Notes under the pieces: model-generated
What the model was told of the DNA's origin: nothing
Databases searched by the model: none
The model's input: only the letters and a program-made list of their open reading frames with translations
Part shown: positions 3,413 through 20,510 of the stretch, in pieces
Position numbering within the stretch: the first letter of the stretch is position 1
Layout: the number at the start of each line of letters is the position of its first letter
Origin: a bacterium
Lineage (GTDB): Bacteria; Armatimonadota; Fimbriimonadia; Fimbriimonadales; Fimbriimonadaceae
NCBI GenBank assembly: GCA_027483535.1
Contig: JAIXUN010000002.1
Coordinates: forward strand, 2,232,001-2,296,000
Direction of reading: 5' to 3'
DNA: 64,000 nucleotides
Translations under genes and position numbers: made by a program

Positions 3413-3450
3413 CGCCATATCTCCTTCTATCTCAACAGACTCTGAATCCG

Positions 3451-3972
3451 TTACGCCTCAAGCGGCCAAGTGGTGATGGTCACACTTTCGATGTTCGCCG
3501 GATTGCTATCCAGCGGGCGATCGCCAGGACCGCGTTGCAGATTCACAATCGCGTCCGCCACTTCCAAGCCTTCAATCACGTACCCAAAAGCGCTGTACTG
3601 ACCATCCAGGCTCGGATACTTCTTCACCATGATGAAGAACTGCGATCCGGCCGAGTTTGGGCTGGCAGAGCGAGCCATAGAAAGAATGCCTCGGTCGTGG
3701 GGAGTGTCGTTGAACTCCGCGTTGATGCTGTAGCCCGGTCCGCCCGTTCCAGGCATTCCGTGAGCGCCCTCGCGAGTATTTGGGCAGCCGCCCTGAATCA
3801 TGAAGCCAGGGATGACTCGGTGGAACTGGAGGCCGTTGTAGAAGCCCTCGTTGCTCAGCTTCTTGAAGTTCTCCACGTGGCCAGGAGCCTTATCGGGCAG
3901 AAAGCCAAGAACAATTCGACCGTGGTTGGTTTGCATCACGGCGACTTCGTCGCCTGGTTGGGGCTGAAACAT
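3451..3972 (-). CDS. Cyclophilin-type peptidyl-prolyl isomerase, cytoplasmic
   Basis: 173 aa, a single cyclophilin domain with FHRVIPGFMIQGG, SMARSASPNSAGSQFFI and FGYVIEGLEV. No signal peptide or lipobox. It is clearly paralogous to the lipoprotein cyclophilin next to it. The gene upstream of the lipidated copy is therefore a cytoplasmic form, and the pair probably serves folding on both sides of the membrane. The spacing to the neighbour is 38 bases and both are on the same strand, so co-transcription is likely. Confidence 0.93.
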   Translation of the reverse strand: MFQPQPGDEVAVMQTNHGRIVLGFLPDKAPGHVENFKKLSNEGFYNGLQFHRVIPGFMIQGGCPNTREGAHGMPGTGGPGYSINAEFNDTPHDRGILSMARSASPNSAGSQFFIMVKKYPSLDGQYSAFGYVIEGLEVADAIVNLQRGPGDRPLDSNPANIESVTITTWPLEA

Positions 3973-4817: not shown

Positions 4818-4911
4818 AGGTCGTAATCTACCCACCCGTATCCGGTTCTCTTAGAAATCGGATTGCGTTAAGGACAAGACACACCGGTTGGAATGGTCGT
4901 AAGATGACGCC

Positions 4912-6018
4912 ATGGCAGAACTTTCGCGTCGAGAAGTGTTAGCGGCGGGCGGAGCCGTCGCAGCGTCGGGTGTCGTCGCCGGATTAGGAATGGAGGCGTT
5001 CGCAAATCCCGCTCAAGAACCCTCCAAACCCGTTGGCTGGGCGATTCTTGGGTTGGGAGGATACGCCACCAATCAGATTTTGCCGAACATGAAGTTCTGC
5101 AAGAACAGCAAGCCCGTGGCGGTTATCTCGGGCTCGCCGGATAAGGCAAAGCGCATCGCCGCGCAATACGATATCCCGGAATCCAAAATTTACGACTACA
5201 AGAATCTGGAGGCGATCAAGAACGACCCGGACATCGAGGTGGTCTACGTCATCACGCCCCCCGGCACCCACCACGAATACACCATGCGCGCGCTTCGAGC
5301 AGGCAAACACGTTTGCTGCGAAAAGCCCATGACGGGCGACCTAAAGGAAGCCGAAGAGATGGTCGCCGAGGCGAAGAAGCTCGGCAAACGGCTGGGCGTG
5401 GGCTATCGATGCCACTTTGAGCCGCACAACCTAGAAGCAGTTCGCCTCTGCCGATCCGGAGCCCTTGGTACGCTCCGAACCATTCGGTCCGACCACGGCT
5501 TCACCATGGGCTGGGACACGGGCTGGCACCATCGAAGAGACATCGGTGGGTACGGCGCCATCAGCGAGATCGGCATTTACGCCATTCAAGCCTGTTGCTA
5601 CCTTGCGGGGGCAGACCCCATCGAGGTGTACGGCACTCGAGACAAACTTGCCGTTCCCCGGTTCAAAGAGGTGGAAGACGTGAACCACTTCAACCTCATC
5701 TTCCCCAACGGCATCCAAGGATTCTGTGCAACAGCCTATAGCTGGAACGCGAACAACTTTCGGGTCTACGGCGATCGGGGTCGTATAGATGCCGAACCTG
5801 CCACGGGGTACAGCGGACACAACTTCACCATCAACGGCAAGAAGATCGAGGTCCAAGCCGCCAACCAGTGGGCGCTTCAAATGGACCACTTTTCAGACTG
5901 CGTCCGAGATCCGAAGATGAAGTGCATCATCCCGGGCGAGATGGGTCTCCGTGACATTAGAATCATCGATGCCGTTCTCCGATCTGCAGAATCCGGCAAA
6001 CCGATCAAGCTGAAATAA
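4912..6018 (+). CDS. Gfo/Idh/MocA family oxidoreductase with Tat signal
   Basis: 368 aa. The N-terminus SRREVLAAGG followed by a hydrophobic stretch and an ANPA cleavage-like site is a twin-arginine signal, so the folded, cofactor-loaded enzyme is likely exported. A Rossmann fold follows (ILGLGGYA near residue 46), with the conserved CCEKPM motif near 138 carrying the Lys that contacts NADP and substrate. The C-terminal alpha/beta domain resembles glucose-fructose oxidoreductase. The substrate is probably a sugar or sugar derivative; the exact reaction cannot be given. Confidence 0.88.
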   Translation: MAELSRREVLAAGGAVAASGVVAGLGMEAFANPAQEPSKPVGWAILGLGGYATNQILPNMKFCKNSKPVAVISGSPDKAKRIAAQYDIPESKIYDYKNLEAIKNDPDIEVVYVITPPGTHHEYTMRALRAGKHVCCEKPMTGDLKEAEEMVAEAKKLGKRLGVGYRCHFEPHNLEAVRLCRSGALGTLRTIRSDHGFTMGWDTGWHHRRDIGGYGAISEIGIYAIQACCYLAGADPIEVYGTRDKLAVPRFKEVEDVNHFNLIFPNGIQGFCATAYSWNANNFRVYGDRGRIDAEPATGYSGHNFTINGKKIEVQAANQWALQMDHFSDCVRDPKMKCIIPGEMGLRDIRIIDAVLRSAESGKPIKLK

Positions 6019-6032
6019 CCGTCTAAAGGAGG

Positions 6033-6530
6033 ATGCACGGTCGAACTTGCCTCCTCCTTTCCCTGCCCCTCGCCCTCTTGGCGATGGCGAGCGCCCAGGC
6101 CAAGAAATCTTGGATCTTGGGTCTGCTCAATCAACCTAGAGCGGCGGTCGAGAAAACGCTCGGCAAGCCCACCAAGTTCGAAGGCGACAAAGACTATCTG
6201 GAGACAAGCTACGCCAGACAAGGCTTCAAGGGCGTGCAAGCCGTTTACGAGAAAGGCAAACTCGTACTCATAGAAATCGAGTTCACCACCGACCCCGGGT
6301 CTTGGCAAAAGGCGCTGCAGGGCGTTGGGTTTGATCCCACCGGAGCCGTGGTGAAGGATTCCACGCCGATCGATGGCGTGAAGCAGACCGCCCTCGGCAA
6401 GGTGAAAGCTCTGCCCAAAGGCTGGGAAACCACGTACTTCCCTGCCCAGAAGGCGACGATTGGTGGAAAAGAAAGCGTAATGAACGCCCGCGTCTCGTTC
6501 TTCCTCCCGCCCCCCGGCACTGCGGGATAG
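6033..6530 (+). CDS. Small secreted protein of unknown function
   Basis: 165 aa. A signal peptide (LLLSLPLALLAMASAQA) precedes a mature domain of about 140 residues with no recognised family. The opening of the mature domain (NQPRAAVEKTLGKPTKFEGD) resembles the start of small periplasmic domains that begin GxxxxxVxxxLGxP. The start is odd: AAAGGAGG at 6025-6032 abuts the ATG with no spacer. An in-frame stop at 6024-6026 rules out an upstream start, and later starts would remove the signal peptide. It lies 14 bases after the Gfo/Idh gene, so the two may be co-transcribed. Confidence 0.7.
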   Translation: MHGRTCLLLSLPLALLAMASAQAKKSWILGLLNQPRAAVEKTLGKPTKFEGDKDYLETSYARQGFKGVQAVYEKGKLVLIEIEFTTDPGSWQKALQGVGFDPTGAVVKDSTPIDGVKQTALGKVKALPKGWETTYFPAQKATIGGKESVMNARVSFFLPPPGTAG

Positions 6531-6663
6531 AGCACCCTACCGCCTCGTTATCATTTTATAGAGATCCGCCCGTTTTTTAAGTACCACATCGGATACTTTG
6601 CACTATGATAATCAGAGAGAGGTCGACGGAGTGGATGATCAACATCGCTCCCTCTGATTATCT

Positions 6664-7395
6664 ATGCCCTTGCATAATTACAAACTTCAGCCCTCTTGCG
6701 CGGCTGATACCGACGGTGGGACAACAACCTACTCCTACGACGGACGCGATATGCTCACGTCTCAAGTTCTGCCGACAGGCGAGATCTACACCTTGCAGTA
6801 CGACGCTGTCGGTAATCAAACCACAGTTACGTTTGGCAATGGATCGATACGATCCACGATTGATGCTCTAGGACAAGTGATAACCCTTACTGCGCTCACC
6901 GGCGCAACGATAATCTCCACAATCGTTGACACTTACGATAACGACGGTAGGAAGACTCGGCAATCGCGCGATGGCGTTGTCACAACGTACACGTACGACA
7001 ACGCGGACCGGCTTACGGGTCAGCAGGTCACTGGAGCAAGAGCCACCTTTGTTTACGACACCGTTGGAAACATGACGGTGAAGCATCACCAGGGTTCGCT
7101 TCCGCTCACCATGACCTACGATGCCGCTCAGCGGTTGACCACTCTCCAAGACGGACCGACCCGCGTGACCTTCAGCTACGACAACAACGGAAACACGACG
7201 GTTGAAAATAGGGGCGGCGTTTCTACAAATTACACTTACAATAGAAGGAACAGAGAGTCTGTGATTGTGAACTCAGACGGAACTCGTGAAACGATGACGT
7301 ACGACGGCGATGGTCTTCGCCGCCGAAAGCAAACCGCAAGCGGAGTGACCACCTACGTTTGGGATGGTGGCGACTACTTAGGAGAAGTGTTCTAA
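6664..7395 (+). pseudogene. 5'-truncated RHS/YD-repeat protein (cassette 1 shell remnant)
   Basis: 243 codons of YD-type repeats, with units such as TYSYDGRDMLTSQ, YTYDNADRLTGQQ, FVYDTVGNMTVK and FSYDNNGNTTVEN. No signal peptide or N-terminal domain is present; a full RHS shell has many hundreds of residues, so the front of the gene is missing. The frame ends in TYVWDGGDYLGEVF and a TAA (7393-7395) just before the RHS core would normally continue. The core is encoded in the -1 frame from an overlapping ATG. It is the longest remaining piece of RHS shell in the window and the best match to the shorter pieces at 10243 and 11905. Confidence 0.8.
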
Positions 7396-7397
7396 TG
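7380..7397 (+). promoter_or_regulatory. Shine-Dalgarno/stop-start overlap between RHS repeats and core
   Basis: AGGAG at 7380-7384, a 10-base spacer, then ATG at 7395 overlapping the TAA of the repeat ORF as TAATG. The same AGGAG-10-start unit recurs at 8644-8661, 10473-10490 and 12057-12074 (there TAGTG with a GTG start). It reads as a translational coupling or independent initiation site for the core-tip ORF. Confidence 0.7.
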
Positions 7398-8243
7398 CCT
7401 ATGTCTGTAGTGTATGCAACGGTGAACGGTCGCATGGTTCAAGAGAACCGAGGCGGAACCATCACCAAATACGTGGCTGATACTCTTGGGAGTGTTATCC
7501 AAACTAGGAACGCCGCTGGAGTGGAGACTTCCTCCACCACGTACTGGCCGTACGGTGAGGCGAGAACCAGCACAGGAACCAACCCCAGCCCTTGGGGCTT
7601 TGTTGGAACACTCGGATACTTCCGAGATGCTCTCACCAGGCTCTACATAAGGGCAAGATACTACATCGCAAGTATCGGCAGGTGGAACACCGTCGATCCG
7701 CTCTGGCCTGCTGTCCGCCCGTACATGTATGCCTCAAACAAGCCGGCCTCAGACACTGATCCTACTGGACTTCTTCCGGCAAACGTTATAGCCGCGCTCA
7801 TTGCAGGATTAACAAGTTGTGCAGCCTCTGCCATTGGGAGCGTAGTAACAGGATGGTTTTCCGGAGATAGTCCGCCGGTTGCAATATGTAAGGCAGCTAT
7901 CAAGTGCCTTGCAAACGGCCTAAGATCCGCGTTAACGGCTCTTTTCGGACCGTTGGCAGGCTGCCTATTGGGTATCTTATCGGCGTTAGCAGGGCTTGCA
8001 GCCGATAAGTTATGTCCCTGTATATCTAATCCGTGCTGCGACAAAAATCCGAACTGGTGTGATGCTGCAAAAGCGGTTGCGGACGCAGCGACCGCATGTC
8101 TTGGAGGTTTTGCAAATCAAGAATTCCGCGATGCACTTGGAGACTGGTTTGGTGGAGCCATAAACCAATTCATTAATACAGTCACGCGCGGTGCAGCTGG
8201 GAGAGCTTGTACTGGTGCCGTTGATCTCAAGAAATACTGGTGA
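7395..8243 (+). CDS. RHS core with hydrophobic Cys-rich tip (cassette 1)
   Basis: 282 aa. Residues 1-126 are an RHS-associated core: NGRMVQENRGG, YVADTLGSVIQ, YWPYGEARTS, RLYIRARYY, GRWNTVDPLWP and the cleavage-type motif DPTGL at about 122-126. The tip (about 127-282) is unlike the other tips. It begins with two long hydrophobic segments suited to membrane insertion and continues with a cysteine cluster (CPCISNPCCDKNPNWC); I count 11 Cys after DPTGL. A pore-forming or membrane-active toxin is a reasonable guess. Its start overlaps the stop of the upstream RHS repeat ORF (TAATG). Confidence 0.8.
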   Translation: MPMSVVYATVNGRMVQENRGGTITKYVADTLGSVIQTRNAAGVETSSTTYWPYGEARTSTGTNPSPWGFVGTLGYFRDALTRLYIRARYYIASIGRWNTVDPLWPAVRPYMYASNKPASDTDPTGLLPANVIAALIAGLTSCAASAIGSVVTGWFSGDSPPVAICKAAIKCLANGLRSALTALFGPLAGCLLGILSALAGLAADKLCPCISNPCCDKNPNWCDAAKAVADAATACLGGFANQEFRDALGDWFGGAINQFINTVTRGAAGRACTGAVDLKKYW

Positions 8244-8249
8244 GTTCAG

Positions 8250-8570
8250 ATGAAAATTGCAATTTCGGCAACACTTAACGCGCTGTTGGAGGCGGTTCTA
8301 GTGTGGATGTTAGCACGGCTCACTTATGGATCCTTCTGTAGAGGAGCGTTGTCGGATACTCCAATTTTAATAGTCTCGTTCGTTTGCACGATGATATTTG
8401 AGGTTGGCCTTAGAACCTTGCCAAAAAGTGCGGAGGCGAAGCCAGAATCTGTTAGGGTACTTGCAGTCTATGTGTTGACCTCTTTACTGGCCTTTTCTTA
8501 TGCAGTGATCGCATATGTTTACCCCGATTGGTTACATGAGTCAGCATCGGTGACAGTACGACTGCGGTAA
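8250..8570 (+). CDS. Small three-helix membrane protein, candidate immunity protein 1
   Basis: 106 aa with three hydrophobic segments (about residues 9-28, 43-62 and 70-92). No family recognised. It starts 6 bases after the stop of the cassette 1 tip and is the last gene before cassette 2. Its position matches that of the other small genes behind each RHS tip. A membrane immunity protein would suit a tip with membrane-inserting segments. The role is inferred from position only. Confidence 0.6.
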   Translation: MKIAISATLNALLEAVLVWMLARLTYGSFCRGALSDTPILIVSFVCTMIFEVGLRTLPKSAEAKPESVRVLAVYVLTSLLAFSYAVIAYVYPDWLHESASVTVRLR

Positions 8571-8658
8571 TCTTCCTAGCAGACTTTGCTGAAAAGCTCT
8601 TATCGAAACTTTTTCTAAGAATTCTATTTCTGTTAGCCTACTTAGGAGAAGACCTCTA

Positions 8659-9453
8659 ATGCCAATGTCCGTAGTGTATGCAACGGTGAACGGTCGCATG
8701 GTTCAAGAGAACCGTGGTGGAACAATCACCAAATACGTCGCCGATACCCTTGGGAGCGTGATCCAAACCAGGAACGCCTCTGGAATTCAGACTTCCTCCA
8801 CCACATACTGGCCGTACGGAGAAGTAAGAACCAGTTCCGGAACCAACCCCAGCCCTTGGGGATTCTGCGGGATCTGGGGCTATCTGACGGACGCCGCTAC
8901 CCGCCTATACGTGCGAGCGAGGAACTACCGTGCCGACCTGTCGAGGTGGAACACCCTGGACCCTCTCTGGCCGGATGAGAGCGCGTACGGCTACGTGAAC
9001 AACGGCCCCGTGGACCAGAACGATCCCAGCGGGAGGCAGTCAAGAAGGGGTTGTCCCCATCATGGCGGGGAGCCGGGTTGCGTGTTCAACGGTCCTCCAG
9101 GTAGCGAGTCCGATCCCGCCTACTGGCACTGCCAGACGCCGCTCTATGATAGGCCTCCTAGTTGTCTTGAGTGCCTCAACGACATTTACAAGCGGACTGG
9201 TAAGGCGTACAACGGAAAAAGAGGTTTCCCAAACGCCATGCGTCATTGCGTTGGAACGTGCTTGGCGAATCAGGAGTGTGGGCAGTTCTGCTCGTTCCTG
9301 GTGATCCTTCACGAGGTTCAGACGTGGTCCACGGACGACTCCCGAAGAGATCGACACAATAACGACGTGGTACATGGCATCGGACGCATTCGTCCCAAAG
9401 CCGACTGCCACAAGAAGTGTGGGCAGGCATACCGTGAAGGGCGGCTGCGTTGA
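8659..9453 (+). CDS. RHS core with NAxxH/DxHNN Cys-rich tip (cassette 2)
   Basis: 264 aa. The core (about residues 1-125) is nearly identical to cassette 1 up to GTNPSPWGF, then diverges moderately and ends in NDPSGR. The tip has 11 Cys and the motifs N192-A-x2-H-C, LHE, D231-R-H-N-N and CHKKCGQAYREGRL. Related motifs occur in cassettes 4 and 5. No RHS repeats precede it: homology to cassette 1 begins only about 9 bases before the AGGAG site (8644-8648), so this cassette is a true orphan that could only be translated from its own ATG. Overlaps the next gene as TTGA. Confidence 0.82.
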   Translation: MPMSVVYATVNGRMVQENRGGTITKYVADTLGSVIQTRNASGIQTSSTTYWPYGEVRTSSGTNPSPWGFCGIWGYLTDAATRLYVRARNYRADLSRWNTLDPLWPDESAYGYVNNGPVDQNDPSGRQSRRGCPHHGGEPGCVFNGPPGSESDPAYWHCQTPLYDRPPSCLECLNDIYKRTGKAYNGKRGFPNAMRHCVGTCLANQECGQFCSFLVILHEVQTWSTDDSRRDRHNNDVVHGIGRIRPKADCHKKCGQAYREGRLR

Positions 9454-9824
9454 CTAGACCTGGTGTGCCAGCGTTGAAGCGGGCAGGCGGGCTGATGCTG
9501 AGACTGGTTGGTGGCGCCATGCTGGGCGCGGGAACTTATTGTTTCATGGTGTACACTCGGCCCGTACTCATCGCCTCGGACGTTCGGGACTCTGTTATTC
9601 GCGTAGATGGCGAGCCCGTCCTACAGGGTACTGGTTCAATCCTTTTCTACCCCTGGCGCTGGGAGTACACCGTTGAGGTCAACACCCTCCGACAGGTCGT
9701 ACGAGGGAGGATCTATCCCTGGGAGCATGACTCTGACTCCGGTTCAGTCATTGTCGATAAGAGCGGCGTTTCCTTTAACTTGATTTGGCGTGCCACGAGC
9801 GGTGGAGGAACTACGGATCGTTGA
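9450..9824 (+). CDS. Single-pass membrane protein, candidate immunity protein 2
   Basis: 124 aa from a TTG that overlaps the tip stop codon (TTGA). One N-terminal hydrophobic segment (about residues 14-35) is followed by a beta-rich domain of roughly 85 residues (VRDSVIRVDGEPVLQGTG and on) that would lie outside the membrane. No family recognised; the beta-sandwich look recalls PEGA-like domains. Tight overlap with the cassette 2 tip argues for a toxin-immunity pair. An ATG at 9495 is an alternative start but would break into the hydrophobic segment. Confidence 0.6.
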   Translation: MTRPGVPALKRAGGLMLRLVGGAMLGAGTYCFMVYTRPVLIASDVRDSVIRVDGEPVLQGTGSILFYPWRWEYTVEVNTLRQVVRGRIYPWEHDSDSGSVIVDKSGVSFNLIWRATSGGGTTDR

Positions 9825-9844
9825 ACAACGCTGAGTCCAACTAG

Positions 9845-10252
9845 CTATCCATTCCACCCAAGTTCTCGTGCTCGCTTGTACCAGGCTTCGGCGCGGTTGG
9901 TGTCACCCCGGTTCTGTGCGAGTTGCGCCAGTAGGACCGCGCTTTGGGCATAGCCCCGCCGCTGAAGTAGGTCGAGGTGCGAGACCGCTTCCTCTGCTCG
10001 CCCAGAGTTGAGATGCCTCATCGCAAGAAGTCTTCGTGCCTCATCGTTGTCAGGATTACGCAGGGTCGCGTCTTGCCATTGGGGTAGAGGGTCAAGCCCC
10101 GCAGCGTCGCAGAGAGCGCCTACCATCCCCGGCCACATCCCGGTTTGCCCTTGGTGGGCGACTACCCATGCAAGGGCTTCCTCGTCTGCCGCTAGGTCGT
10201 TCTGCTCCAAGGCTGACGCGATGAGTGCGGTGGCCGCTTCATGACGGACCAA
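9845..10252 (-). pseudogene. TPR-like gene fragment, 5' end lost at cassette 3
   Basis: 135 codons, opposite in strand to all cassettes. Helical repeats such as NPDNDEARRLLAMRHLNSGR, HLDLLQRRGYAQSAVLLAQL and NRGDTNRAEAWYKRARELG fit tetratricopeptide/Sel1-like units. The frame opens with a TTG exactly where homology to the RHS repeats of cassette 3 begins (about 10243). The real N-terminus was therefore probably removed when the cassette arrived. Its GC content is higher than that of the tip genes, so it may be a piece of the older chromosome. Confidence 0.55.
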
Positions 10253-10488
10253 CCCGAGTCACGTTCAGCTACGACAACAAAGGGAACACGACGGTTGAAA
10301 ATAGGGGCGGCGTTTCTACAAATTACACTTACAATAGAAGGAACAGAGAGTCGATGATTGTGAACCCAGACGAATCTCGTGAGAGGATGACGTACGACGG
10401 CGACGGTCTACGCCGCCGCAAGCAAACCGCTAGCGGAGTGACCACCTACGTTTGGGATGGTGGCGACTACTTAGGAGAAGTGTTCTAA
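10243..10488 (+). pseudogene. RHS repeat fragment of cassette 3
   Basis: Open frame from GAC at 10243 to the TAA at 10486-10488. It is closely similar to the last 82 codons of the cassette 1 repeat ORF (from DGPTRVTFSYDN to YLGEVF). It has no start codon of its own within the homologous part. The TAA overlaps the ATG of the next ORF (TAATG), exactly as in cassette 1. The left boundary abuts the truncated TPR gene. Confidence 0.75.
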
Positions 10489-11336
10489 TGCCGATGTCTG
10501 TAGTGTATGCAACGGTGAACGGCCGCATGGTTCAAGAGAACCGAGGCGGAACCATCACCAGATACGTCGCCGATACTCTTGGGAGCGTGATCCAAACCAG
10601 AAACGCCTCGGGAGTTCAGACTTCCTCCACCACGTACTGGCCGTACGGTGAAGTAAGAACCAGCACAGGAACCAACCCCAGCCCATGGGGCTTTGTGGGA
10701 ACACTCGGCTACTTCCGAGATGCTCTCAGTAGGCTCTACATCAGAGCCAGATACTACATTGCGAGTATCGGCAGGTGGAACACCGTTGATCCGCTTTGGC
10801 CAGATGAAAGTGCCTATGGGTACGTCAAAAATATTCCAAGCGGCATGGTTGATCCAACGGGACTCAAGCCAGGCAAAGTCCCTAAGAGGCCTACATGGCC
10901 AAGCGGCGGCACAGGATGCTTGTCAGGTCCTCGCCAGCTAGAGCCTTGCGAGGAGATCCTTAACGGTTTAGTTCCTCGAGTTGCAAAACGGGTCGAAAAG
11001 TGTATTATCAATTGCGGTTTGTACGCGCCCGACTGCTGGGCTAAATGTCTTCAAAAAGTTGCCGATTCAAAGGACTGGCCGATATACGCTGAGTATCTTG
11101 CGTGTCTGTTTTCTTCAGGCCTTAACGGGAGCCCAGGAAACCCGTGCAGTGGTTCGGACACCGGGGTAACAGTATGGCGCCAAGAATGTTGCGACATGTG
11201 GTTTATGCAGTGCGTCTTGATAAAGTGTGGACCAGGTGCGAAAGATACATCCTGCTATAAATCCTGTTTAGATGGACATACGCAATGTTACTTAGACGCT
11301 GAAGTAGGCCGAGGAAGAAGAAGAGGACGACAATGA
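10488..11336 (+). CDS. RHS core with 15-Cys tip (cassette 3)
   Basis: 282 aa. The core (about 1-126) is nearly identical to cassette 1 and ends in VDPTGL. The tip has 15 Cys, many in spaced pairs (CIINCGLYAPDCWAKC, ECCDMWFMQC, CYKSCLDGHTQC), and ends in a basic GRGRRRGRQ tail. It lacks the NAxxH and DxHNN motifs of cassettes 2, 4 and 5. Many disulfides are likely if exported. Start is the ATG overlapping the repeat-fragment stop, with AGGAG at 10473-10477. The stop overlaps the next gene as ATGA. Confidence 0.8.
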   Translation: MPMSVVYATVNGRMVQENRGGTITRYVADTLGSVIQTRNASGVQTSSTTYWPYGEVRTSTGTNPSPWGFVGTLGYFRDALSRLYIRARYYIASIGRWNTVDPLWPDESAYGYVKNIPSGMVDPTGLKPGKVPKRPTWPSGGTGCLSGPRQLEPCEEILNGLVPRVAKRVEKCIINCGLYAPDCWAKCLQKVADSKDWPIYAEYLACLFSSGLNGSPGNPCSGSDTGVTVWRQECCDMWFMQCVLIKCGPGAKDTSCYKSCLDGHTQCYLDAEVGRGRRRGRQ

Positions 11337-11821
11337 TTAAATGGCTCATCTTATCAAGTATATTGAATCCGGCTCCAGTTCGGGCTGAAACTATTCCTCC
11401 GATCACAAATGGTTTCGCGGGCATAAAGATTAAAGTGCCAAGTGACTGGCTAACTCTGGAACGTAATCCGGGTGAACTCACTCTTGTTCTACCCAACAAA
11501 AGGTGGGTTGTTATAACGGCTCTATCAAAGGATTCTTCCAGTGGGCGAGAACTTGCTAATTCAAGAATCAAATCATTGACAAATTTTCGTTTAAAATTGC
11601 CTGAAACGGTGAAGGAATGGTCCGTCGGAAAAACTCGATATGCAACTACATGTTTTTCCTCGCGGAGTACTCGAAAAATTAGGCCAACTTCCATTTTAGA
11701 GTTCGACGTCTGGAATGACCGCATTCACGTTAACGGTCGCCTAAATCTCGCCTCGATCGCTGATGTATTGGTTGCGCAGGATTTAGAGTTGATTGCTCGA
11801 TCGGTACGTCTTCCTAATTAG
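11333..11821 (+). CDS. Secreted protein, candidate immunity protein 3
   Basis: 162 aa starting in a 4-base ATGA overlap with the cassette 3 tip. A short signal peptide (LILSSILNPAPVRA) precedes a mature domain beginning ETIPPITNGFAGIKIKVPSD. The mature part looks like a small alpha/beta fold (KIKVPSDWLTLER, ELTLVLPNKRWVVIT) reminiscent of the PsbP/DcrB type, a weak resemblance. No enzyme motif. Export plus direct overlap with a Cys-rich tip makes it a periplasmic immunity candidate. Confidence 0.6.
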   Translation: MIKWLILSSILNPAPVRAETIPPITNGFAGIKIKVPSDWLTLERNPGELTLVLPNKRWVVITALSKDSSSGRELANSRIKSLTNFRLKLPETVKEWSVGKTRYATTCFSSRSTRKIRPTSILEFDVWNDRIHVNGRLNLASIADVLVAQDLELIARSVRLPN

Positions 11822-11904
11822 GAAATGGAGGGAGGTCTGAATCGTCAGAGGACAGTAATATACCTTGACTATTTCCGCAACGCAGTTTAGATGCGTATAA
11901 TCCT

Positions 11905-12072
11905 ATGTTCTGGCCAAGAGTTAAGAGAAGGGAGTCGGTAATTGTGAACTCAGACGGAACTCGTGAGACGATGACGTACGACGGCGATGGCCTTCGCCGC
12001 AGAAAACAAACCGCTAGCGGAGTGACCACCTACGTTTGGGACGGTGGCGACTACTTAGGAGAGGTGTTCTAG
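11905..12072 (+). pseudogene. RHS repeat fragment of cassette 4
   Basis: A 55-codon open frame with an in-frame ATG at 11905. Homology to the cassette 1 repeats begins near RRESVIVNSDG and runs to YLGEVF. It ends with TAG at 12070-12072, where cassettes 1 and 3 have TAA. The TAG overlaps a GTG start (TAGTG), so one base change kept both the stop and a start codon. Upstream of the homologous part the sequence is unrelated. Confidence 0.65.
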
Positions 12073-12992
12073 TGCCGATGTCTGTAGTGTATGCAACGGT
12101 GAACGGTCGCATGGTTCAAGAGAACCGTGGTGGAACCATCACCAAATACGTCGCTGATACTCTTGGGAGTGTTATCCAAACCAGGAATGCCTTGGGAGTT
12201 CAGACTTCCTCCACCACATACTGGCCGTACGGAGAAGTAAGAACCAGCACAGGAAACAACCCTTCTCCCTGGGGCTTTGTGGGAACACTCGGCTATTTCC
12301 GAGATGCCCTCAACAGACTTTACATACGGGCCAGGTACTACATCGCGAATATCGGTAGGTGGAACACTGTTGATCCGCTGTGGCCAGGCGAGTCCGCATT
12401 TAACTACGGGCTCAATGAACCAGTTGTCTACCTAGACCCTAGCGGCCTACAGGTAATCCTTGGAGATCCTGGGACTTTAATAGACGGTTATAAGTGTTGT
12501 CTTGACCAGGCAAAACCCGCTCAGGATGCTGCAGCCAAGTTTTGTAAGCAGTATGGATTAGGACCTCCGGCGGATGGCACACTTTGCAATGCAGTTCAAC
12601 ACTGTATGTGGGCATGTTTGATCGCTAAGTCGTGTGGCACTTTTGGAGGACTTTCGGGTGCAGGATGGGCAAAAGAATGCACTGACCTTCACGAAAGGGA
12701 TGCTCCCTGGTTCTGGAAGACATGCCCAGGCTACCGTCAAATTCCAAAAGACAACAAACCACACCCCCCCACAAGCAAATGCAAGGATTTGTACAATAAT
12801 GCCATCGGGATTAATTGTGGAACTTCAAACGATTGTTACACATGTTGCGTTGCAAATGCTAAGCCAGGAGGCATCGAAGCAATACTTCCACCTGAGAAAC
12901 CTGGCAAGATGCCTCCGGGGTGGCGAAAGCCTCGTTCTGGATGTAAAACGAATCCCGGAAAGGTCATCATTCCCGCTACAGGTCGATATTAG
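12072..12992 (+). CDS. RHS core with NAxxH/DxYNN Cys-rich tip (cassette 4)
   Basis: 306 aa from the GTG in TAGTG; the next ATG is two codons later. The core resembles cassettes 1 and 3 and ends in LDPSGL. The tip has 15 Cys and the motifs N173-A-V-Q-H-C, LHERD, D239-L-Y-N-N-A and CYTCC, arranged as in the cassette 2 and 5 tips. A Pro/Lys-rich C-terminal extension follows. I read it as a divergent member of the same tip family. The next gene starts 1 base after the stop. Confidence 0.82.
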   Translation: MPMSVVYATVNGRMVQENRGGTITKYVADTLGSVIQTRNALGVQTSSTTYWPYGEVRTSTGNNPSPWGFVGTLGYFRDALNRLYIRARYYIANIGRWNTVDPLWPGESAFNYGLNEPVVYLDPSGLQVILGDPGTLIDGYKCCLDQAKPAQDAAAKFCKQYGLGPPADGTLCNAVQHCMWACLIAKSCGTFGGLSGAGWAKECTDLHERDAPWFWKTCPGYRQIPKDNKPHPPTSKCKDLYNNAIGINCGTSNDCYTCCVANAKPGGIEAILPPEKPGKMPPGWRKPRSGCKTNPGKVIIPATGRY

Positions 12993-12993
12993 A

Positions 12994-13302
12994 ATGGCCC
13001 ACCTTAAACGCATCTCCTTGCTTTTAGTATTTCTAGTTCTGAGTTTTGGAGGATGTAACACACATCCACAAGCTTTGGTTCATCTCTACTTTGATAAAGA
13101 CCTAAGTCTTGTGAGTGAGTCCTTCGTTTCAGGACCTGGTCTTGCGTCGATTTACTTATCGGAAGGTATTCACGTTATTCGCTTTAAGCGTAGGGGCGAA
13201 GTGGTGGGGTGCATACTTAATGTCGACAGTGGGGGTGAGGTTTATCTAACCATCGACATAGATGACCTAGCTCCAATTATTAGGGCTGAAGAATCAGAAT
13301 AG
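12994..13302 (+). CDS. Small lipoprotein, candidate immunity protein 4
   Basis: 102 aa. Signal peptide LLLVFLVLSFGGC with a lipobox-type cysteine, then about 80 residues of probable beta structure (ALVHLYFDKDLSLVSE, IHVIRFKRRGEVVG, GEVYLTIDIDD). It starts a single base after the cassette 4 stop. The beta pattern and length resemble candidate immunity protein 2. An immunity lipoprotein displayed in the periplasm would fit an extracytoplasmic toxin. The longer in-frame extension upstream lies inside the tip gene and is not needed. Confidence 0.62.
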   Translation: MAHLKRISLLLVFLVLSFGGCNTHPQALVHLYFDKDLSLVSESFVSGPGLASIYLSEGIHVIRFKRRGEVVGCILNVDSGGEVYLTIDIDDLAPIIRAEESE

Positions 13303-13455
13303 CTTTCTTCTGAACGAAGGTAGGAACAAGGGCGTATGCCGCGTTGAAGAAACGGAAGGTTTAAGAGAAGTGGTGTAAAAGTAACATTAAAGCCTTCGCC
13401 CACACGTTTTACACGATTACTCAATGTCGAAATTTCTAATGCGTTAAGACCACTT

Positions 13456-13711
13456 TTAAGCGCACTGGTCAGTTGAGAAAGTAAGACTGAGCATGGGAAC
13501 CGATCCTCCAGACGTTGCGTTCTCGGGATGACCAGTTCTTTGTTTCAGGCCGTCGCAGAGTTGTAGAAGTTCCTGTGTCCTGTTAGTCATCAGTCTGTCC
13601 TTGTAAGTTATGGGATTTAATCCACCCAGTGCCAGGTGAGGTCTATGTTTGTCGTAGTGGTCTTGGAATTCGGCTAGAACCGTCTGAAGTTCCGCTCCGC
13701 GTGCACACACC
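13456..13711 (-). pseudogene. Transposase C-terminal fragment
   Basis: The minus frame contains EFQDHYDKHRPHLALGGL followed by NPITYKDRL, the typical C-terminal end of IS3/IS481-type DDE transposases (Y-N-x-x-R-P-H-x-x-L-G-x-x-T-P). The catalytic DDE part is absent: the fragment is cut at about 13711, where the 367-bp repeat begins. No terminal inverted repeats could be identified. It marks past transposition next to cassette 4. Confidence 0.65.
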
Positions 13712-14078
13712 TCGAAGCTTCCCGATCGCCGCTCCAATGGAAGAGCAACGTTCTAGCGCCGATCTCGATTGCACTGGACGTCAATGCTCCCGATTCAGCG
13801 TAGGCCGATCTCGCGTTCGAAAACATCCGCGCTGCTTCACCGTCTAAGTAGGCTGGAATGCCGGAGCCTTCAAGGATCGACTTCATCTTCTGCCGGACAA
13901 CCCGGTGCACTTGCCCGGCGTCTCCGGAAAACCGAGGCGCACGTCCGCCACGGCGTCGGCGCAACGTGATCACTCTGCACCCCTCGTCCACCTGAAAGCC
14001 GTTTTTGTTCGCTTTTCCGCACAAAGGCTCACACTTTTGGGCGATACATCGTCCAATCTTTTCAAGTGCATGGTTGAC
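13712..14078. repeat. 367-bp direct repeat, copy A (carries a truncated gene start)
   Basis: Matches 17616-17982 base for base with no gaps and about 18 mismatches counted by eye (about 95% identity), same orientation. On the minus strand it encodes the N-terminal part of the protein whose full version is at 17329-17928. Here the frame runs into the transposase fragment right after HWSGDREAS and is broken. The copies bracket a 3.5-kb segment with the 400-aa gene, cassette 5 and its immunity candidate. Confidence 0.85.
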
Positions 14079-14097
14079 GGATATAGTCGTTGGAAGA

Positions 14098-15300
14098 ATG
14101 GAGAGCCAACCTTGCAAAGAAAAGCTCCAGGCGAACAATAAACTGCCACTGACAACCGATTACCTTTGCAGCCATCTCAGCCAGATTTCTAATGCGGAGA
14201 AAATGGAACTCATTCTCAGATCAATCATCTCAGCACTAGAAGAGATTCCGTGCTCAATTAGACCAGATTGGACCTTTGATGCAGTCGTCGTTGACGAGTA
14301 CGCAAACTTGATAAGAGGAGCTACACGAGTAGGGGACATCTCGATTGGTAGTGAAGCCTGGGCTGTCCCTGAAGACATCGGATACCTGTTTCAAGACATT
14401 AGCTCTGGAACAGCCTTAGTCGGACTAGTAGATGTTGTCATTGCTTATCCTCTCCTACAAGTATTGAGAGCGCTGACTCAAGACGTTGAGGAGGTTGATC
14501 CACATTTATCCAATTATGGAAACTCCTTAGCCCGCATCATTGGCAACGATATTGGCTCAAACGTCTTAGAGAGGTCAAATCCGACCGCCTTGTTCGAACA
14601 TCTACCACTCCTAACAGAGGGGAGTTTCGTTGCTTACGTTCTTTTGTCTCGACGCTCCCCGTACTGGATGCGAGATGCAGAAGCCTGGTTAGTGATTTCA
14701 AGATTTCTATCCCACTTGCTCTGTCTTCAGACTACTGGTATCAATGGTGACTTGAACCGGATAAAGCATGGCTGGTCACCGGTCCAATCCTTTAAGCTTA
14801 CTGAACTTGAAAGAATCACACCATTGAGGATTGCGGGCCTGATTAACCTGTTCCCAAGCTACACCTCACGATGGCGATACGATATTTTGCTCGCTTCAAG
14901 AAAAAACGCAAGGCGTTCTTGGAGTGCGTTTTTAAAGCGGGTGAGCCAAAATGACCCGGACCCGATGGTTCGCTGGGTTGCCTTTGATATTCTTTGTTCG
15001 TCGAAGGTCACGTGGATAAAGGATGTTCCTTGGTTAATAGAAAGCGTCGAGGACACTACACTTCCAACACTTTGGCGAAGGTCCGCTTTTATCGGTTTGA
15101 CAAGACTTGCGCATAAGACCAAGAATCAGACTCTCAAAGAAACCATTCTCAGCCGTCTAGAAATGGTAATGGAATCTGATGCGATGCACAACCCCACTGA
15201 GTTCTTCTATGGCATCGATCCACGATCTGACAAGTCAATAAAACAGATTCCGCCATACCCACGCTATCATGTTCACTATGATCCGGAGCTCTTCGGATAG
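14098..15300 (+). CDS. Helix-rich protein of unknown function between repeat copy A and cassette 5
   Basis: 400 aa from ATG 14098 (GGAAG just upstream). The frame is open further upstream but that part lies in the repeat. No signal peptide. The sequence is rich in Leu/Trp helices, and the C-terminal half (for example DPDPMVRWVAFDILCSSK and WRRSAFIGLTRLAH) resembles HEAT-like repeats. No enzyme motif found. It lies 40 bases before the cassette 5 start. It could be a cytoplasmic immunity protein left from a lost tip or an unrelated cargo gene. Confidence 0.6.
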   Translation: MESQPCKEKLQANNKLPLTTDYLCSHLSQISNAEKMELILRSIISALEEIPCSIRPDWTFDAVVVDEYANLIRGATRVGDISIGSEAWAVPEDIGYLFQDISSGTALVGLVDVVIAYPLLQVLRALTQDVEEVDPHLSNYGNSLARIIGNDIGSNVLERSNPTALFEHLPLLTEGSFVAYVLLSRRSPYWMRDAEAWLVISRFLSHLLCLQTTGINGDLNRIKHGWSPVQSFKLTELERITPLRIAGLINLFPSYTSRWRYDILLASRKNARRSWSAFLKRVSQNDPDPMVRWVAFDILCSSKVTWIKDVPWLIESVEDTTLPTLWRRSAFIGLTRLAHKTKNQTLKETILSRLEMVMESDAMHNPTEFFYGIDPRSDKSIKQIPPYPRYHVHYDPELFG

Positions 15301-15340
15301 AAGCTGTGATTTCGCAAATAACCTCCTTTCGATTCGAAAA

Positions 15341-16216
15341 ATGTTTAAGATGCATGTAACGAACTATGTTTCAGTAAACGGTCGAATGCTCTCTGAAGTC
15401 ACGGATGGTGTGATCCTAAACTACGTTCCAGATCCTCTTGGAAGCATCCACTCGGTGGTGGATCAGACGGCAACGGCGGTGAAGACCATGCGTTACAAAC
15501 CGTACGGAGAAGTGCTCTCTCGCTCTGGAAGCATCTCCGACAGGATGTATCAGTGGGTTGGACCGTATGGCTACAGAGCCACGTTCAACTATGCGAGCTC
15601 CCACTACGTCAGGGCACGGCATTATTCGCAGACGCCGGGAAGCTGGACGACGGTTGATCCAGTTTGGCCGAACCAAAATGGCTACTTGTATTGTGGATCA
15701 AATCCAGCAGGCAATCTAGACCCATCTGGTTATTGTCCGATTCGATGTAAACCGACTGAAGAATGCGTTTATGTTTCAGCACACAACTGCCCGGGTGAGC
15801 CGTATGGTGCAAGGCAGTGTAGACCAAGATCGAAAAGGGACTGTTTCGCCGGACACTTTAGTCATTGCATGTGTGATATAGGAGAGTTTGCAAATCGCTT
15901 GGTTCCGAATCCAACTCAAGCTGGCAGGCAGAATGCGATAGCGCACTACGTTACGGCGTGCATGATTACCGCTTTTTGTCCAAGTTCAGCATTTGACGAG
16001 TGGCAAAGTCGCGAGAGAAAACCAGAATGCATCATCACTCGTAACGCCTGTGATAGCGATAGGCATAACAACGAGATTGGTCGCCGAATTGGCGGGGGAT
16101 TTAAGCAGTGGGGTCCAAGGGGCCTGCAGCTTACTGGCGACGCCTGTGTCGCTGGTTGCACCAAAGCGTGGAATAATGGCCAACTCAAAGAAGATAACAC
16201 ATTTCGTTTGTTTTAA
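15341..16216 (+). CDS. Divergent RHS core with NAxxH/DxHNN Cys-rich tip (cassette 5)
   Basis: 291 aa from ATG 15341 (a second Met three codons on matches the other cassettes better). The core follows the same outline, but its residues differ widely from cassettes 1-4: VNGRMLSEV, YVPDPLGSIHSV, YKPYGEVLS, HYVRARHY, GSWTTVDPVWP and DPSGY. No RHS repeats or AGGAG-10 module precede it. The tip has 14 Cys and N198-A-I-A-H, D240-R-H-N-N and CVAGCTKAWNNGQL, as in cassettes 2 and 4. It is thus an older or independently acquired cassette of the same tip family. Confidence 0.8.
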   Translation: MFKMHVTNYVSVNGRMLSEVTDGVILNYVPDPLGSIHSVVDQTATAVKTMRYKPYGEVLSRSGSISDRMYQWVGPYGYRATFNYASSHYVRARHYSQTPGSWTTVDPVWPNQNGYLYCGSNPAGNLDPSGYCPIRCKPTEECVYVSAHNCPGEPYGARQCRPRSKRDCFAGHFSHCMCDIGEFANRLVPNPTQAGRQNAIAHYVTACMITAFCPSSAFDEWQSRERKPECIITRNACDSDRHNNEIGRRIGGGFKQWGPRGLQLTGDACVAGCTKAWNNGQLKEDNTFRLF

Positions 16217-16769
16217 TTTGTTAGCATGGAACCTATTTGGTTGTGAGCGAAAATTTCATCCACCCTATAACGAAGAATGGATGAACCGGTTCGAACAGCC
16301 GATGCCGATAGGACGGTATCAGGTTAGAGATGAGTTGGGCGTAGAGGATTTAGAAGTCGTAGATAACTTTACGATTCTCAAGCCAAAGACTCAGTACCTG
16401 TATGTCCGCAACCCTGCAGACAAATACCTCTGGGAGAAATATAGAGTCCTTAGCACGGAAATCAAACCAGCTGATGAAGACGATCCGGAGATTGTCAATC
16501 AGTCTTTGAGTGTCATCGCTGGCACAGAGACTCGAATAAACAGGAGGAACCTTAGAACAAAGCTTGCTGGGAGGACGATAGTTCAGCGGAGTTCCGATTA
16601 CGAACCAAGAGAAGTCGATATCCCGGCACAATCAGATTTCGTGGAAAACTTTAGTGGACAGCTTATCTTCGCCGATACCGATGCGACATTTATCAGATGG
16701 AGAATCTTCACTCTCCAAAACGGAAAGGTGATTGAAACGAGATCCGTTCTCCGGGAACACGGGATGTAG
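16176..16769 (+). CDS. Lipoprotein, candidate immunity protein 5
   Basis: 197 aa from ATG 16176, overlapping the cassette 5 stop by 41 bases in another frame. The N-terminus ITHFVCFNLLAWNLFGC carries a lipobox-like cysteine. The mature part is polar, with mixed alpha/beta character, and no family is recognised. Position right behind the tip and predicted lipidation match candidate 4. The frame is open far upstream inside the tip gene, so the start is set by the signal sequence. Confidence 0.58.
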   Translation: MANSKKITHFVCFNLLAWNLFGCERKFHPPYNEEWMNRFEQPMPIGRYQVRDELGVEDLEVVDNFTILKPKTQYLYVRNPADKYLWEKYRVLSTEIKPADEDDPEIVNQSLSVIAGTETRINRRNLRTKLAGRTIVQRSSDYEPREVDIPAQSDFVENFSGQLIFADTDATFIRWRIFTLQNGKVIETRSVLREHGM

Positions 16770-17328
16770 GGCAATCACGGATACACCTTTGTTGTTGTTT
16801 ACGCATCCTTGCTTCATCATCAAGCAATTAGGTTTAAGTGCTTTTAGCACCTAGGACCACGGGCGCCTAAGCAGATTCATTGAAATGATCGTTGAGTGCT
16901 TCCTGGTGTCATCCTTCTTTCCATAGGATCGATAAGAGCAATACGATGTACATAGAATACGTGTTGTCCTGTTACGTCAAGTGAGTATTGGTCAACGCAT
17001 GAGAGATTAAGCAGTGTTGTTTTCGGCCTTCCAGGATAGTGCGTCCGGCGCAAGTGACCAGGCCCCATTTTCTCACCATCCTAAACCTGTAGGATTTCCT
17101 CCGTTTTGTTTGTCTTGAGACTTTCCTTAAGGGTGCTCCTTTAGAACTTATGACTGATAGTCGGAACCGTGCGGATCGCCGTTATCTCTCGTAATCCCTG
17201 CAACCTCGGCAGGATTTCTCAGCTCTCTACTCCGAACAGGACCTCTCTTCAGTCTCAGAGCCTTGGCGTATCATAAAGGACGTTATGGTGCACCAGAAGC
17301 CGTTTCTACGTACGCTAAGGAATAGCGG
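16770..17328. other. 559-bp region without a convincing gene
   Basis: Only short open frames occur; the longest, 63 codons on the minus strand at 16877-17068, has no recognisable motif or ribosome site. The region lies between candidate immunity protein 5 and repeat copy B and may be decayed mobile DNA. I see no tRNA, strong hairpin or array in it. Confidence 0.5.
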
Positions 17329-17928
17329 TTACGACTCGTGGCATGCGATGATCGAGCGAGCGATATCGAGTGCTCCGTCGACATCTATCTGATTGCGCGC
17401 AAAACTCGTGTTGAGTAATTGCTCTGGAAGCACCCAGTCGTATTTATCGCGAGCCTTGTTCTTGATATTGGTTGCTAGTTCAACGTCGTTTGGAATCGGG
17501 TCTTTCAGAAGTTCCGAGAGCACTCGCGCAAGTTCTTGCAAGGTCGCCTCCAGGATCAACACTTCCGGATCAGGATCAACCGTCAGGCCCTTATGATCCA
17601 GCAGAAGGCGAAGGGTCGAAGCTTCCCGATCGCCGCTCCAATGGAAGAGCAACGTTCTAGCGCCCATCTCGATTGCACTGGACGTCAATGCTCCCGATTC
17701 AGCGTAGGCCGATCTCGCGTTCGAAGGCATCCGCACTACTTCACCGTCTAAGTAGGCTGGAATGTCGGACCCTTCAAGGATCGACTTCATCTTCTGCCGG
17801 ACAACCCGGTGCACTTGCCCGGCGTCTCCGGAAAACCGAGGCGCACGTCCACCACGGCTTCGGCGCAACGTGATCACTTTGCGATCGTCGTCCACCTGAA
17901 AGCCGTTTTTCTTCGATTTTCCGCACAA
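17329..17928 (-). CDS. Protein of unknown function, DUF4145-like (full-length copy)
   Basis: 199 aa from a TTG, although the homologous frame continues upstream through a possible C-x3-C-x3-C start region (KIGRCIAPKCEPLCGK). A basic stretch (ITLRRSRGGRAPRF) is followed by helices such as SAYAESGALTSSAIEMGART, which resemble DUF4145-type proteins; this is a weak match. The C-terminal half contains HKGLTVDPDPEVLILEATLQ and helices. A truncated copy is at 13712-14078. An association with restriction or defence genes is known for DUF4145 but cannot be shown here. Confidence 0.55.
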   Translation of the reverse strand: MCGKSKKNGFQVDDDRKVITLRRSRGGRAPRFSGDAGQVHRVVRQKMKSILEGSDIPAYLDGEVVRMPSNARSAYAESGALTSSAIEMGARTLLFHWSGDREASTLRLLLDHKGLTVDPDPEVLILEATLQELARVLSELLKDPIPNDVELATNIKNKARDKYDWVLPEQLLNTSFARNQIDVDGALDIARSIIACHES

Positions 17929-17982
17929 AGGCTCACACTTTGGGGCGATACATCGTCCAATCTTTACAAGTGCATGGTTGAC
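17616..17982. repeat. 367-bp direct repeat, copy B
   Basis: The partner of 13712-14078, at a constant offset of 3904 bases over the whole length. It covers the 5' part of the gene at 17329-17928 plus 54 bases upstream. Both boundaries are sharp. The 248 bases from here to the ABC exporter hold no gene I can see. Confidence 0.85.
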
Positions 17983-18230
17983 CCGCGGATCGGGTTTCTA
18001 TCGCCACCCCAAAATCGCCTCTGATAAAGCAGCGTCGCTTTTCAAACGGTCAGAGTTTTTTGCGCGTGGATTTTCCTCCGAAGCCGGAACTTCGGATCGT
18101 AGAAACCGAAGATCCACGTTGCCTTCATGCGCCATTCGTTGCGTGAATCAATGGTGTCTCGCCCCTGCACAGCGGCAGGATCGGAACCAAGGGCGCGCCA
18201 CGGGGTCGGACGGGAGGGTCCGGAAACGCT

Positions 18231-20510
18231 ATGTCAGATTTGAACGGGTCAGATACCAAGGGGTTGCCAGAAGAGTCGAAGCAACAGTTGCAACAGACTG
18301 CGGATGAGGATAGAACCATCCGAGTTGAAACCGACTTGGATCGGTACGGCCGCTTGGGCCACAGCCGCCTGGAAATCTATGACGGCACCGCTCGTACCTT
18401 CCAAAAAACACCGACGGGCGAGGAACTGATTGAAGAGCACCCCGTAGCCGAGCTCACCAATCCTCGACTGGAAGACCTTGTCGATGCAACCGCGCTCATT
18501 GCCGACCGCAATGGCGGCAGCGTCGAACTGATTCGAGCCACCAACCGCCAAAACCTGGCTCTTGCCAACGCCGAAAAGCGGCTGAAGGCGATGATCGATG
18601 GGAAACCCCTTCCCCCCATCGACGACACCAATCGGCTTTGCCCCAAGTGCGGCAGACCGCTTCCCAAGTACAACAACGTCTGCGAAGCGTGCGTGAGCCG
18701 CGGCAAAACCCTGCTCCGACTCTTCGAATACACGAAGCCGTATCGCGGTCGACTCATTTGGGGAACGCTCCTCAGCGTTGGCGGCATGGTGCTGGAACTC
18801 CTTCCGCCTTACCTGACCAAGATCCTTATCGATGAGACGCTTGAGAAGAAGGACACCCTGCCAATGGCAGAGGTGTACGCGCACTTTCTGCAGATCATCC
18901 TCATCCTTCTCGTCGCGCGATTCATCATCCTGGGCGTTCAAATCGCTCGCGGACGAAACGTGGCTTTCTTGGGTGCGCGAATCACCATCGCCATTCGGCA
19001 CAGCCTGTTCGAGAAGCTCCAACACCTCAGTCTGGGCTTCTACGATAAACGCAACGTCGGCTCGATCATGAGCCGAATGACCAACGACACGGGCGCCCTG
19101 TATGACGTTCTCGTCGACGGTATCCCGGTGGTGGTGAACCAAATGGTGTTGCTCATCGGCATCCCAACGGTTCTGCTGCTGATGAACTGGAAGATCGGCC
19201 TTTGGGCGCTGATCCCCATCCCCGTCGTCGCGCTTGCCGTCAACTACTTCCGCAAGAAGATGAACCGGGTCTGGAGCCGCGTTTGGCACCAATGGTCTCG
19301 GATGAGCTCTGCCCTCAGCGGCGTTCTGCAAGGAACGCGCGTGGTGAAGGCTTTCTACGGCGAAGATCGAGAGGTCAGCCGCTTCAACCGTCGCATCAGC
19401 GAGCTCAGCGAAGCGGGCTATGTGGCAGAAGCCGGATGGGCCACCTTCTTCCCGCTGGTGCTGTTCGCCATGGGAATGTCCACCATCTTGGTCTGGTTCG
19501 TGGGCGGTAGAGGCGTCTTGCAAGGAATCATGACCGTCGGCGAACTCGTGGCGTTCATCGCTTACGTCCAACGCCTGAACGATCCGTTGATGAACCTGCA
19601 ACGCTTGATCGACTGGTCCACGCGAGCGCTCACCGCAGCAGAACGCGTGTTTGAGATTCTCGATACTCCGATCGATATTAAGGACGCGGAAGATGCCGTG
19701 GCCATGCCGCAGGTGGAAGGCGGCATCAAGTTCAGCGATGTCCACTTTGGCTACGACAAGCTTCGAACCGTTCTGCACGGCGTGGACTTAGAGGTCAAAC
19801 CCGGCGAGATGATCGGTATCGTTGGCCACTCCGGAAGCGGAAAAACCACGCTGATCAACATGATCCTGCGCTTCTACGATCCCACCCAGGGCCATATCGA
19901 ACTGGACGGTGTCGATCTGCGCAAGATCAAGGTCGACGACTTCCGGCGACAGGTTGGCGTTGTTCTTCAAGAGAGCTACCTCTTCCCCGGAACGATCAAA
20001 GACAACATCGCATACGGTCGACCCGACGCGACCCTCCGCGAGGTCATGGAGGCGGCGAAGGCGGCGAACGCTCACGACTTCATCGTGAAGTTCCCCGACG
20101 GATACGACACCTACGTCGGCGAGCGCGGTCAACGACTATCGGGCGGAGAGCGCCAGCGCATTTCCATTGCTCGGGCCATTCTTCACAACCCGAAGGTTCT
20201 TATTCTCGACGAAGCAACCGCCAGCGTGGACACGGAAACCGAGCGGATGATTCAAGAGGCCATCGAGAACCTGGTCGAGGGTAGAACCGTTCTTGCCATC
20301 GCCCACCGACTCTCCACGTTGAAGAACGCGGATCGCCTGGTGGTCATGGATGAGGGCCGAGTGGCGGAGTTGGGCACTCACGAAGAACTTCTCGCGCTAG
20401 AAGACGGCATCTACGCCAAGCTGGTCCGCATGCAGTCGGAAGTCAGCAAGATGCAGCAGAACTTCCTTGGCGAAATGCCCGCCGAAGAAGAGCCCGTAAC
20501 CGCCACCTAA
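18231..20510 (+). CDS. ABC exporter with N-terminal zinc-ribbon extension
   Basis: 759 aa, a fused permease/ATPase of the MsbA/type IV exporter class. Residues 1-135 are a polar extension unusual for the family, and a zinc ribbon (CPKCGRPLPKYNNVCEAC, about 137-154) precedes the membrane domain. Six hydrophobic helices span about 165-460. The ATPase has Walker A GHSGSGKTT at about 532, signature LSGGERQR at about 636, Walker B VLILDEAT at about 660 and the H-loop AIAHRLST. It should homodimerise to export lipid or drug substrates. The start is set by ATG with GGGAGG 13 bases upstream. Confidence 0.93.
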   Translation: MSDLNGSDTKGLPEESKQQLQQTADEDRTIRVETDLDRYGRLGHSRLEIYDGTARTFQKTPTGEELIEEHPVAELTNPRLEDLVDATALIADRNGGSVELIRATNRQNLALANAEKRLKAMIDGKPLPPIDDTNRLCPKCGRPLPKYNNVCEACVSRGKTLLRLFEYTKPYRGRLIWGTLLSVGGMVLELLPPYLTKILIDETLEKKDTLPMAEVYAHFLQIILILLVARFIILGVQIARGRNVAFLGARITIAIRHSLFEKLQHLSLGFYDKRNVGSIMSRMTNDTGALYDVLVDGIPVVVNQMVLLIGIPTVLLLMNWKIGLWALIPIPVVALAVNYFRKKMNRVWSRVWHQWSRMSSALSGVLQGTRVVKAFYGEDREVSRFNRRISELSEAGYVAEAGWATFFPLVLFAMGMSTILVWFVGGRGVLQGIMTVGELVAFIAYVQRLNDPLMNLQRLIDWSTRALTAAERVFEILDTPIDIKDAEDAVAMPQVEGGIKFSDVHFGYDKLRTVLHGVDLEVKPGEMIGIVGHSGSGKTTLINMILRFYDPTQGHIELDGVDLRKIKVDDFRRQVGVVLQESYLFPGTIKDNIAYGRPDATLREVMEAAKAANAHDFIVKFPDGYDTYVGERGQRLSGGERQRISIARAILHNPKVLILDEATASVDTETERMIQEAIENLVEGRTVLAIAHRLSTLKNADRLVVMDEGRVAELGTHEELLALEDGIYAKLVRMQSEVSKMQQNFLGEMPAEEEPVTAT

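Follow-up and report, generated by a model that had tools for sequence, protein, structure and literature searches.

The window analysed here, a 64,000-nucleotide stretch (C1:2232001-2296000), lies inside a 2.46-Mb contig of a four-contig, 99% complete genome. In this window, a variable island separates dapB from an ABC transporter gene (Table 1). The island contains, in order, an oxidoreductase gene, a gene at 6033-6530 whose protein is found in one of 20 genomes of the genus (its own), Rhs cassettes 1-4 and a block flanked by two direct repeats, copies A and B.

Table 1. Features of the island and its borders in window coordinates.
Feature	Position	Strand	Description
dapB	4038-4835	-	
Variable island	4836-18230	.	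13.4 kb, between dapB and the ABC transporter gene
Oxidoreductase gene	4912-6018		
Transposase C-terminal end	13456-13711	-	IS481/IS3-like integrase core (rve_3, IS481 model), truncated at the joint with copy A
Repeat copy A	13712-14078	-	sngC remnant (SngC similarity from 13713 to around 13991-13997) and some 87 bp without recognisable SngC similarity; 3' end of gene missing
Helical orphan protein gene	14098-15300	+	400 aa; structure model all-helical
Cassette 5	15269-16216	+	Rhs core fragment (Rhs_assc_core 37.7 bits, cut-off 32.5) and C-terminal, toxin-type domain
Lipoprotein-like gene	16173-16769	+	Candidate immunity partner overlapping the cassette 5 end; LFGC resembles a lipobox by eye
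ORF over copy B	17329-17928	-	199 aa, TTG start; C-terminal remnant of a Shango SngC-type helicase (PADLOC SngC)
Repeat copy B	17616-17982	-	sngC remnant plus about 87 bp, joined on the left to the remaining 3' end of the gene; SngC match 17895-17347, 54-56% identity
ABC transporter gene	18231-20510	+	

In two genomes of the same genus, G002 and G003, dapB and the ABC transporter gene are separated by less than 1 kb; in G003, this interval contains small ORFs. dapB lies near the ABC gene in two of the stretches from 11 relatives, two of which are short (5.8 and 3.4 kb), and the ancestral dapB-ABC order is read from two genomes. The two same-genus genomes have no Rhs island here, which bears on the island and not on the arrival of cassette 5. 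Near dapB are two tandem genes (2654-3972) that we take to be peptidyl-prolyl-isomerase-like; G002 and G003 contain three stretches that resemble them.

The Rhs array (7144-12387) is itself repetitive. Cassettes 1, 3 and 4 have direct repeats of the Rhs core of 457-565 bp (89-92%), and cassette 2 (8659-9453) has Rhs-core direct repeats of 227-369 bp in common with the array (80-88%). Recombination within the array could delete or fuse cassettes. Cassette 4 (12036-12992) carries DUF6973 (E=1.5e-11).

The block between the repeats contains a helical gene, cassette 5 and a lipoprotein gene, as the earlier note had described. The model of the helical protein has a mean pLDDT of 48, and only residues 256-384 are mostly above 50. 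No homologue is found in 60 other relatives or in phages, and a pattern scan of genome_contigs returned 11 pattern matches and no confirmed homologue. One weak paralogue in the same genome (28% over 98 aa) lies near another Rhs remnant. At L055:5731-11885, small genes stand in a row on the strand of an Rhs remnant; one has a HEAT-like match (E=4e-4, below cut-off) and weak similarity to the helical protein. The helical gene also has a weak PADLOC match to the C-terminal part of the reverse transcriptase model RT_UG32 (E=2.7e-4). It is possibly an orphan immunity-type gene.

In cassette 5, a variable C-terminal domain comes after an Rhs-associated core, the arrangement of an orphan Rhs module. 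The C-terminal domain is matched in one of 291 genomes, its own. Beyond the core, cassettes 2 and 5 are weakly alike and have a common NA..H / DRHNN motif. The core matches a locus at C1:1815037 with 67% protein identity (82% in DNA across 285 bp), compared with 31-39% for cassettes 1-4. Its closest relative in the genome (67%) is in an Rhs cassette locus with small genes adjacent (L053:7439-10303). Cassette 5 matches no Pfam family and, in NCBIfam, the Rhs core only; the lipoprotein-like gene matches no Pfam or NCBIfam family. Six-frame reading of 16770-17328, between the lipoprotein gene and the ORF at copy B, identified nothing. A plasmid search with the block gave no match. The G+C content of the block is 46-49%, compared with approximately 58% over the ABC gene, and cassettes 3 and 4 are also AT-rich. 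Promoter and terminator scans returned about chance numbers of sites (5 vs 3.9 expected and 6 vs 5.4 expected). One promoter-like site (14059-14087), of a kind found at about chance number, straddles the right-hand end of copy A and immediately precedes the helical gene.

The repeat pair and its sngC content

Copies A and B align over 367 bp without gaps, in the same orientation and with 18 mismatches (95.1% identity; blastn E=2.6e-166 in a self-comparison of the window), and thus bear out the ungapped pair with about 95% identity that had been noted previously at these positions. The longest identical run is 80 bp (13867-13946), and five of the mismatches are packed within 9 bp. The similarity ends abruptly at both edges and falls to the random level; identity over the adjoining 60 bp is 20% on the left and 25% on the right, and random 60-mers of the window have a mean identity of 25%. 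Neither a third copy nor an intact donor is found in the genome. DNA searches returned the repeats themselves and Rhs-core matches only, and a protein search of the genome found the repeat-encoded sequence at these two places only.

The ORF over copy B is most similar to the C-terminus of SngC. About 183 of its codons match positions 537-718 of the 720-position PADLOC SngC profile (E=1.5e-36); the next-best model is BrxHI/HII (E=1.5e-7). The open frame at copy B is 199-222 codons long. Copy A matches residues 464-556 of a 653-aa form of SngC from G003 with 50.5% identity. Matching loci in other genomes (n=15) align to the copy-B ORF from its residue 10 or later. To judge from these alignments, the copy-B ORF is the 3' end of a longer sngC-type helicase gene and not a complete gene, because the matching C-terminus sits in long helicases elsewhere. 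The earlier note had read a gene that is complete at copy B and begins in copy A. Neither part of that reading holds; the profile match at copy B covers the SngC C-terminus only, and copy A contains C-terminal SngC sequence without the natural start of the gene. A glutamate-dehydrogenase-like Pfam match on both copies (E 0.18-0.19, under cut-off) was dropped as chance.

The rest of an SngC-type system is not found in the window. The 739-aa SngC of G003 matches from its residue 548 on only, at E values up to 1, and no N-terminal DEAD/DEAH helicase motor is found. A 247-aa piece of the G003 SngB-like protein finds no SngB in the window (E up to 1), and the convergent DUF2779 nuclease of G003 is likewise not found there.

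In copy B, the similarity to SngC begins at 17895; in copy A, it begins at 13991 with the 653-aa form as query and at 13997 with the 739-aa form. With a 12-sequence profile, the start lies one codon further out in both copies. Judged by these alignments, the start points in the two copies correspond within two codons. The repeat extends approximately 87 bp upstream of the SngC start, and this extension is common to both copies. It has no colinear SngC match in any frame; in another frame, 14 residues match an unrelated SngC region (E 0.015, single comparison), which is taken as chance. Mismatch density is similar in the SngC part (14/280) and the non-SngC part (4/87). The simplest reading is that a truncated, fused sngC remnant existed before copying, because the truncation point and the adjoining 87 bp or so are common to both copies. 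Alternatively, the extension may be strongly decayed SngC sequence and not a fusion, the stretch being too short for searches.

In the helicase frame, the differences between the copies comprise 16 nonsynonymous and 2 synonymous changes, with a neutral expectation of 73% nonsynonymous. As many or more nonsynonymous changes are expected with P=0.11 under neutrality and P=1.6e-4 for an omega of 0.3. Within the SngC part, there are 12 nonsynonymous and 2 synonymous changes (P=0.24 neutral, 0.029 for omega 0.5 and 0.0023 for omega 0.3). These P values are too sharp, as the clustered mismatches are not all independent. At the 14 sites comparable with two G003 genes, five changes are derived in copy A, four in copy B and five are undecided. 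The substitution pattern gives no sign of coding constraint between the copies, and changes appear to fall on both.

SngC-like genes in other genomes

SngC-like matches are found in 15 of 291 genomes of the phylum, including the genome studied here. G003 contains two 739-aa helicases, one with a PADLOC SngC match at E=9.4e-263 and the other, in its 653-aa form, at E=4.2e-230. An SngB-like gene (E ~2e-97) adjoins each of them and is cut by, or lies near, a contig end. By alignment rather than PADLOC scan, 12 of 13 further loci cover at least 551 of the 653 residues of the G003 helicase. At the remaining locus, L068, only 129 C-terminal residues align and no motor is found in the 1.5 kb upstream. 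This C-terminal part (L068:1501-1890) lies in a 258-codon frame and is another stand-alone piece, either a scar or a different fusion.

The two SngB-SngC loci of G003 (L083 and L084) are similar to one another, with 95% identity in SngC and 84% in a DUF2779 RecB-like nuclease whose gene is convergent with, and overlaps, its neighbour at each locus. Searches of the short flanks around 13 other SngC-like loci did not find this nuclease. L084 is near an Rhs gene and L083 is near recombinase-like genes (names read by eye).

The Shango anti-phage system is described, in the available text of PMC10250203, as a TerB-like protein, an ATPase and a helicase. The locus studied here resembles it in the SngC C-terminal match of the copy-B ORF, and in G003 SngB- and SngC-like genes are side by side. 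It differs in that only the 3' end of sngC remains, twice, while the motor and SngB are not found in the window.

Origin of the repeat pair

On its left side, copy A adjoins the end of a transposase gene. The transposase piece matches rve_3 at E=1.1e-5 (25.5 bits, just under the cut-off of 26.5) and positions 252-282 of the 284-position IS481 model at E=1.9e-4 (21 bits, far under the cut-off of 224). It is matched in 11 of 85 genomes of the family, including its own. The best other matches are 44-53% identical; several are in longer frames and most have a stop inside the matched stretch. The earlier note had the transposase fragment cutting the left edge of copy A. The fragment does abut copy A there, but the transposase is itself cut at the same joint. 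The joint (13711/13712) lies inside both genes, transposase and sngC, and so fits what a deletion leaves.

On balance, the repeats are best read as two copies of one decayed sngC scar, with the block duplicated and then partly deleted. The scar would have been truncated before it was copied. Illegitimate recombination would then have produced a tandem duplicate of a block of approximately 3.9 kb (14079-17982), comprising the helical gene, cassette 5, the lipoprotein gene and the scar. A deletion reaching from within an insertion sequence into the first scar would later have left only the last 367 bp of the first block. The scar would have no function of its own and would merely provide homology for loss of the block. 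Against duplication, the first block is not seen apart from the scar and has to be assumed lost, and copies 4 kb apart must diverge by 5% without collapsing. Against the scar reading, a stand-alone SngC C-terminal piece is also present at L068, one of 13 loci. Moreover, the same arrangement would result from insertion at a scar already present, which is nearly as good an account, if a less probable one. In this account, a resident sngC scar would have lain with the transposase fragment on one side and the ABC gene on the other. Homologous recombination would have brought in DNA carrying a related scar together with the helical gene and cassette 5, so that a scar flanks the block on either side. 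Such an insertion explains the two-copy arrangement in one step, and the divergence of the copies could be older than the event. The cassette 5 core, unlike those of cassettes 1-4 and closer to the locus at C1:1815037, is also in its favour, as is the lower G+C content of the block relative to the ABC gene, but the AT-rich cassettes 3 and 4 mean that composition does not single out the block. The donor, however, needs the same truncated scar and the same 87 bp with other flanks, and no such donor is found in plasmids or among the sequences matched across the 291 phylum genomes, where the comparison was of proteins and not of the 87 bp. The earlier note had offered tandem duplication or repeat-mediated insertion; this is the right class of event. 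A complete gene at copy B is not supported.

The other explanations are far less probable than either duplication with deletion or insertion. It is improbable that the pair is functional, whether as an expressed C-terminal SngC fragment or as repeats kept for switching cassette 5 out by deletion. The open frame at copy B, the presence of the C-terminal part alone at L068 of another genome and repeats long enough for recombination are consistent with a function, but the frame has only a TTG start, there is no motor and the copies show no sign of constraint. An assembly artefact is very improbable; repeats are common places of misassembly, but these two differ at 18 sites, have four distinct flanks and lie well within a 2.46-Mb contig. 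Least probable is a composite transposon, in which the repeats would be the ends of a mobile element that moved cassette 5. In its favour, the block does lie between direct repeats, one of which has a transposase fragment next to it. However, this fragment is outside one copy only, no Pfam recombinase is found among the three block proteins and there are no inverted repeats at the edges, the nearest pair (26 nt, 73%; 13669-13694 and 18085-18110) being outside both copies. Barring an unknown element, the composite transposon is rejected, as there are no flanking insertion-sequence copies and the repeat is sngC sequence.

Recombination between the copies and its meaning

Recombination between the copies is predicted to remove 3,904 bp, including the helical gene, cassette 5 and the lipoprotein gene. 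This deletion is mechanically plausible because of the length of the repeats and of their longest identical run. A literature search on repeats around orphan modules gave no match for the combined topic; two partial parallels are known. For the orphan rhs-CT/rhsI modules of Salmonella, the accessible part of PMC3967940 proposes locus duplication and recombination across a 522-bp, 95% identical region. The likeness, as far as that part goes, is that a larger Rhs fragment precedes an array in which a short Rhs fragment has a variable C-terminus and a small gene downstream. In Salmonella, rhs coding sequence forms the repeat, and recombination across it results in a toxin fusion; here, the repeat is the scar of an unrelated, putative defence gene and lies outside the Rhs cassette, and recombination would do no more than delete the cassette. 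In Vibrio, displacement of T6SS effectors leaves orphan immunity genes, according to the portion of PMC5361080 available. Those arrays are similar in that they are built stepwise and old partner genes are left behind, whereas the status of the helical gene as an orphan immunity gene is here only conjectural.

A broader reading, which is doubtful, is that scars of lost anti-phage genes act as homologous landing and exit sites for toxin-immunity cassettes in a shared island. Cassette 5 would then have come, and could leave, via the sngC scar and not the Rhs core. If true, cassettes would have an exchange route beside the known recombination through the Rhs core. The pair itself is an ordinary scar of rearrangement, of value chiefly for documenting island shuffling. 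The analysis corrects the gene content of the repeat from a complete gene to a decayed sngC remnant. The repeat pair records a duplication or an insertion in a competition-and-defence island, and shows that the Rhs island also once contained part of an anti-phage system, since decayed.
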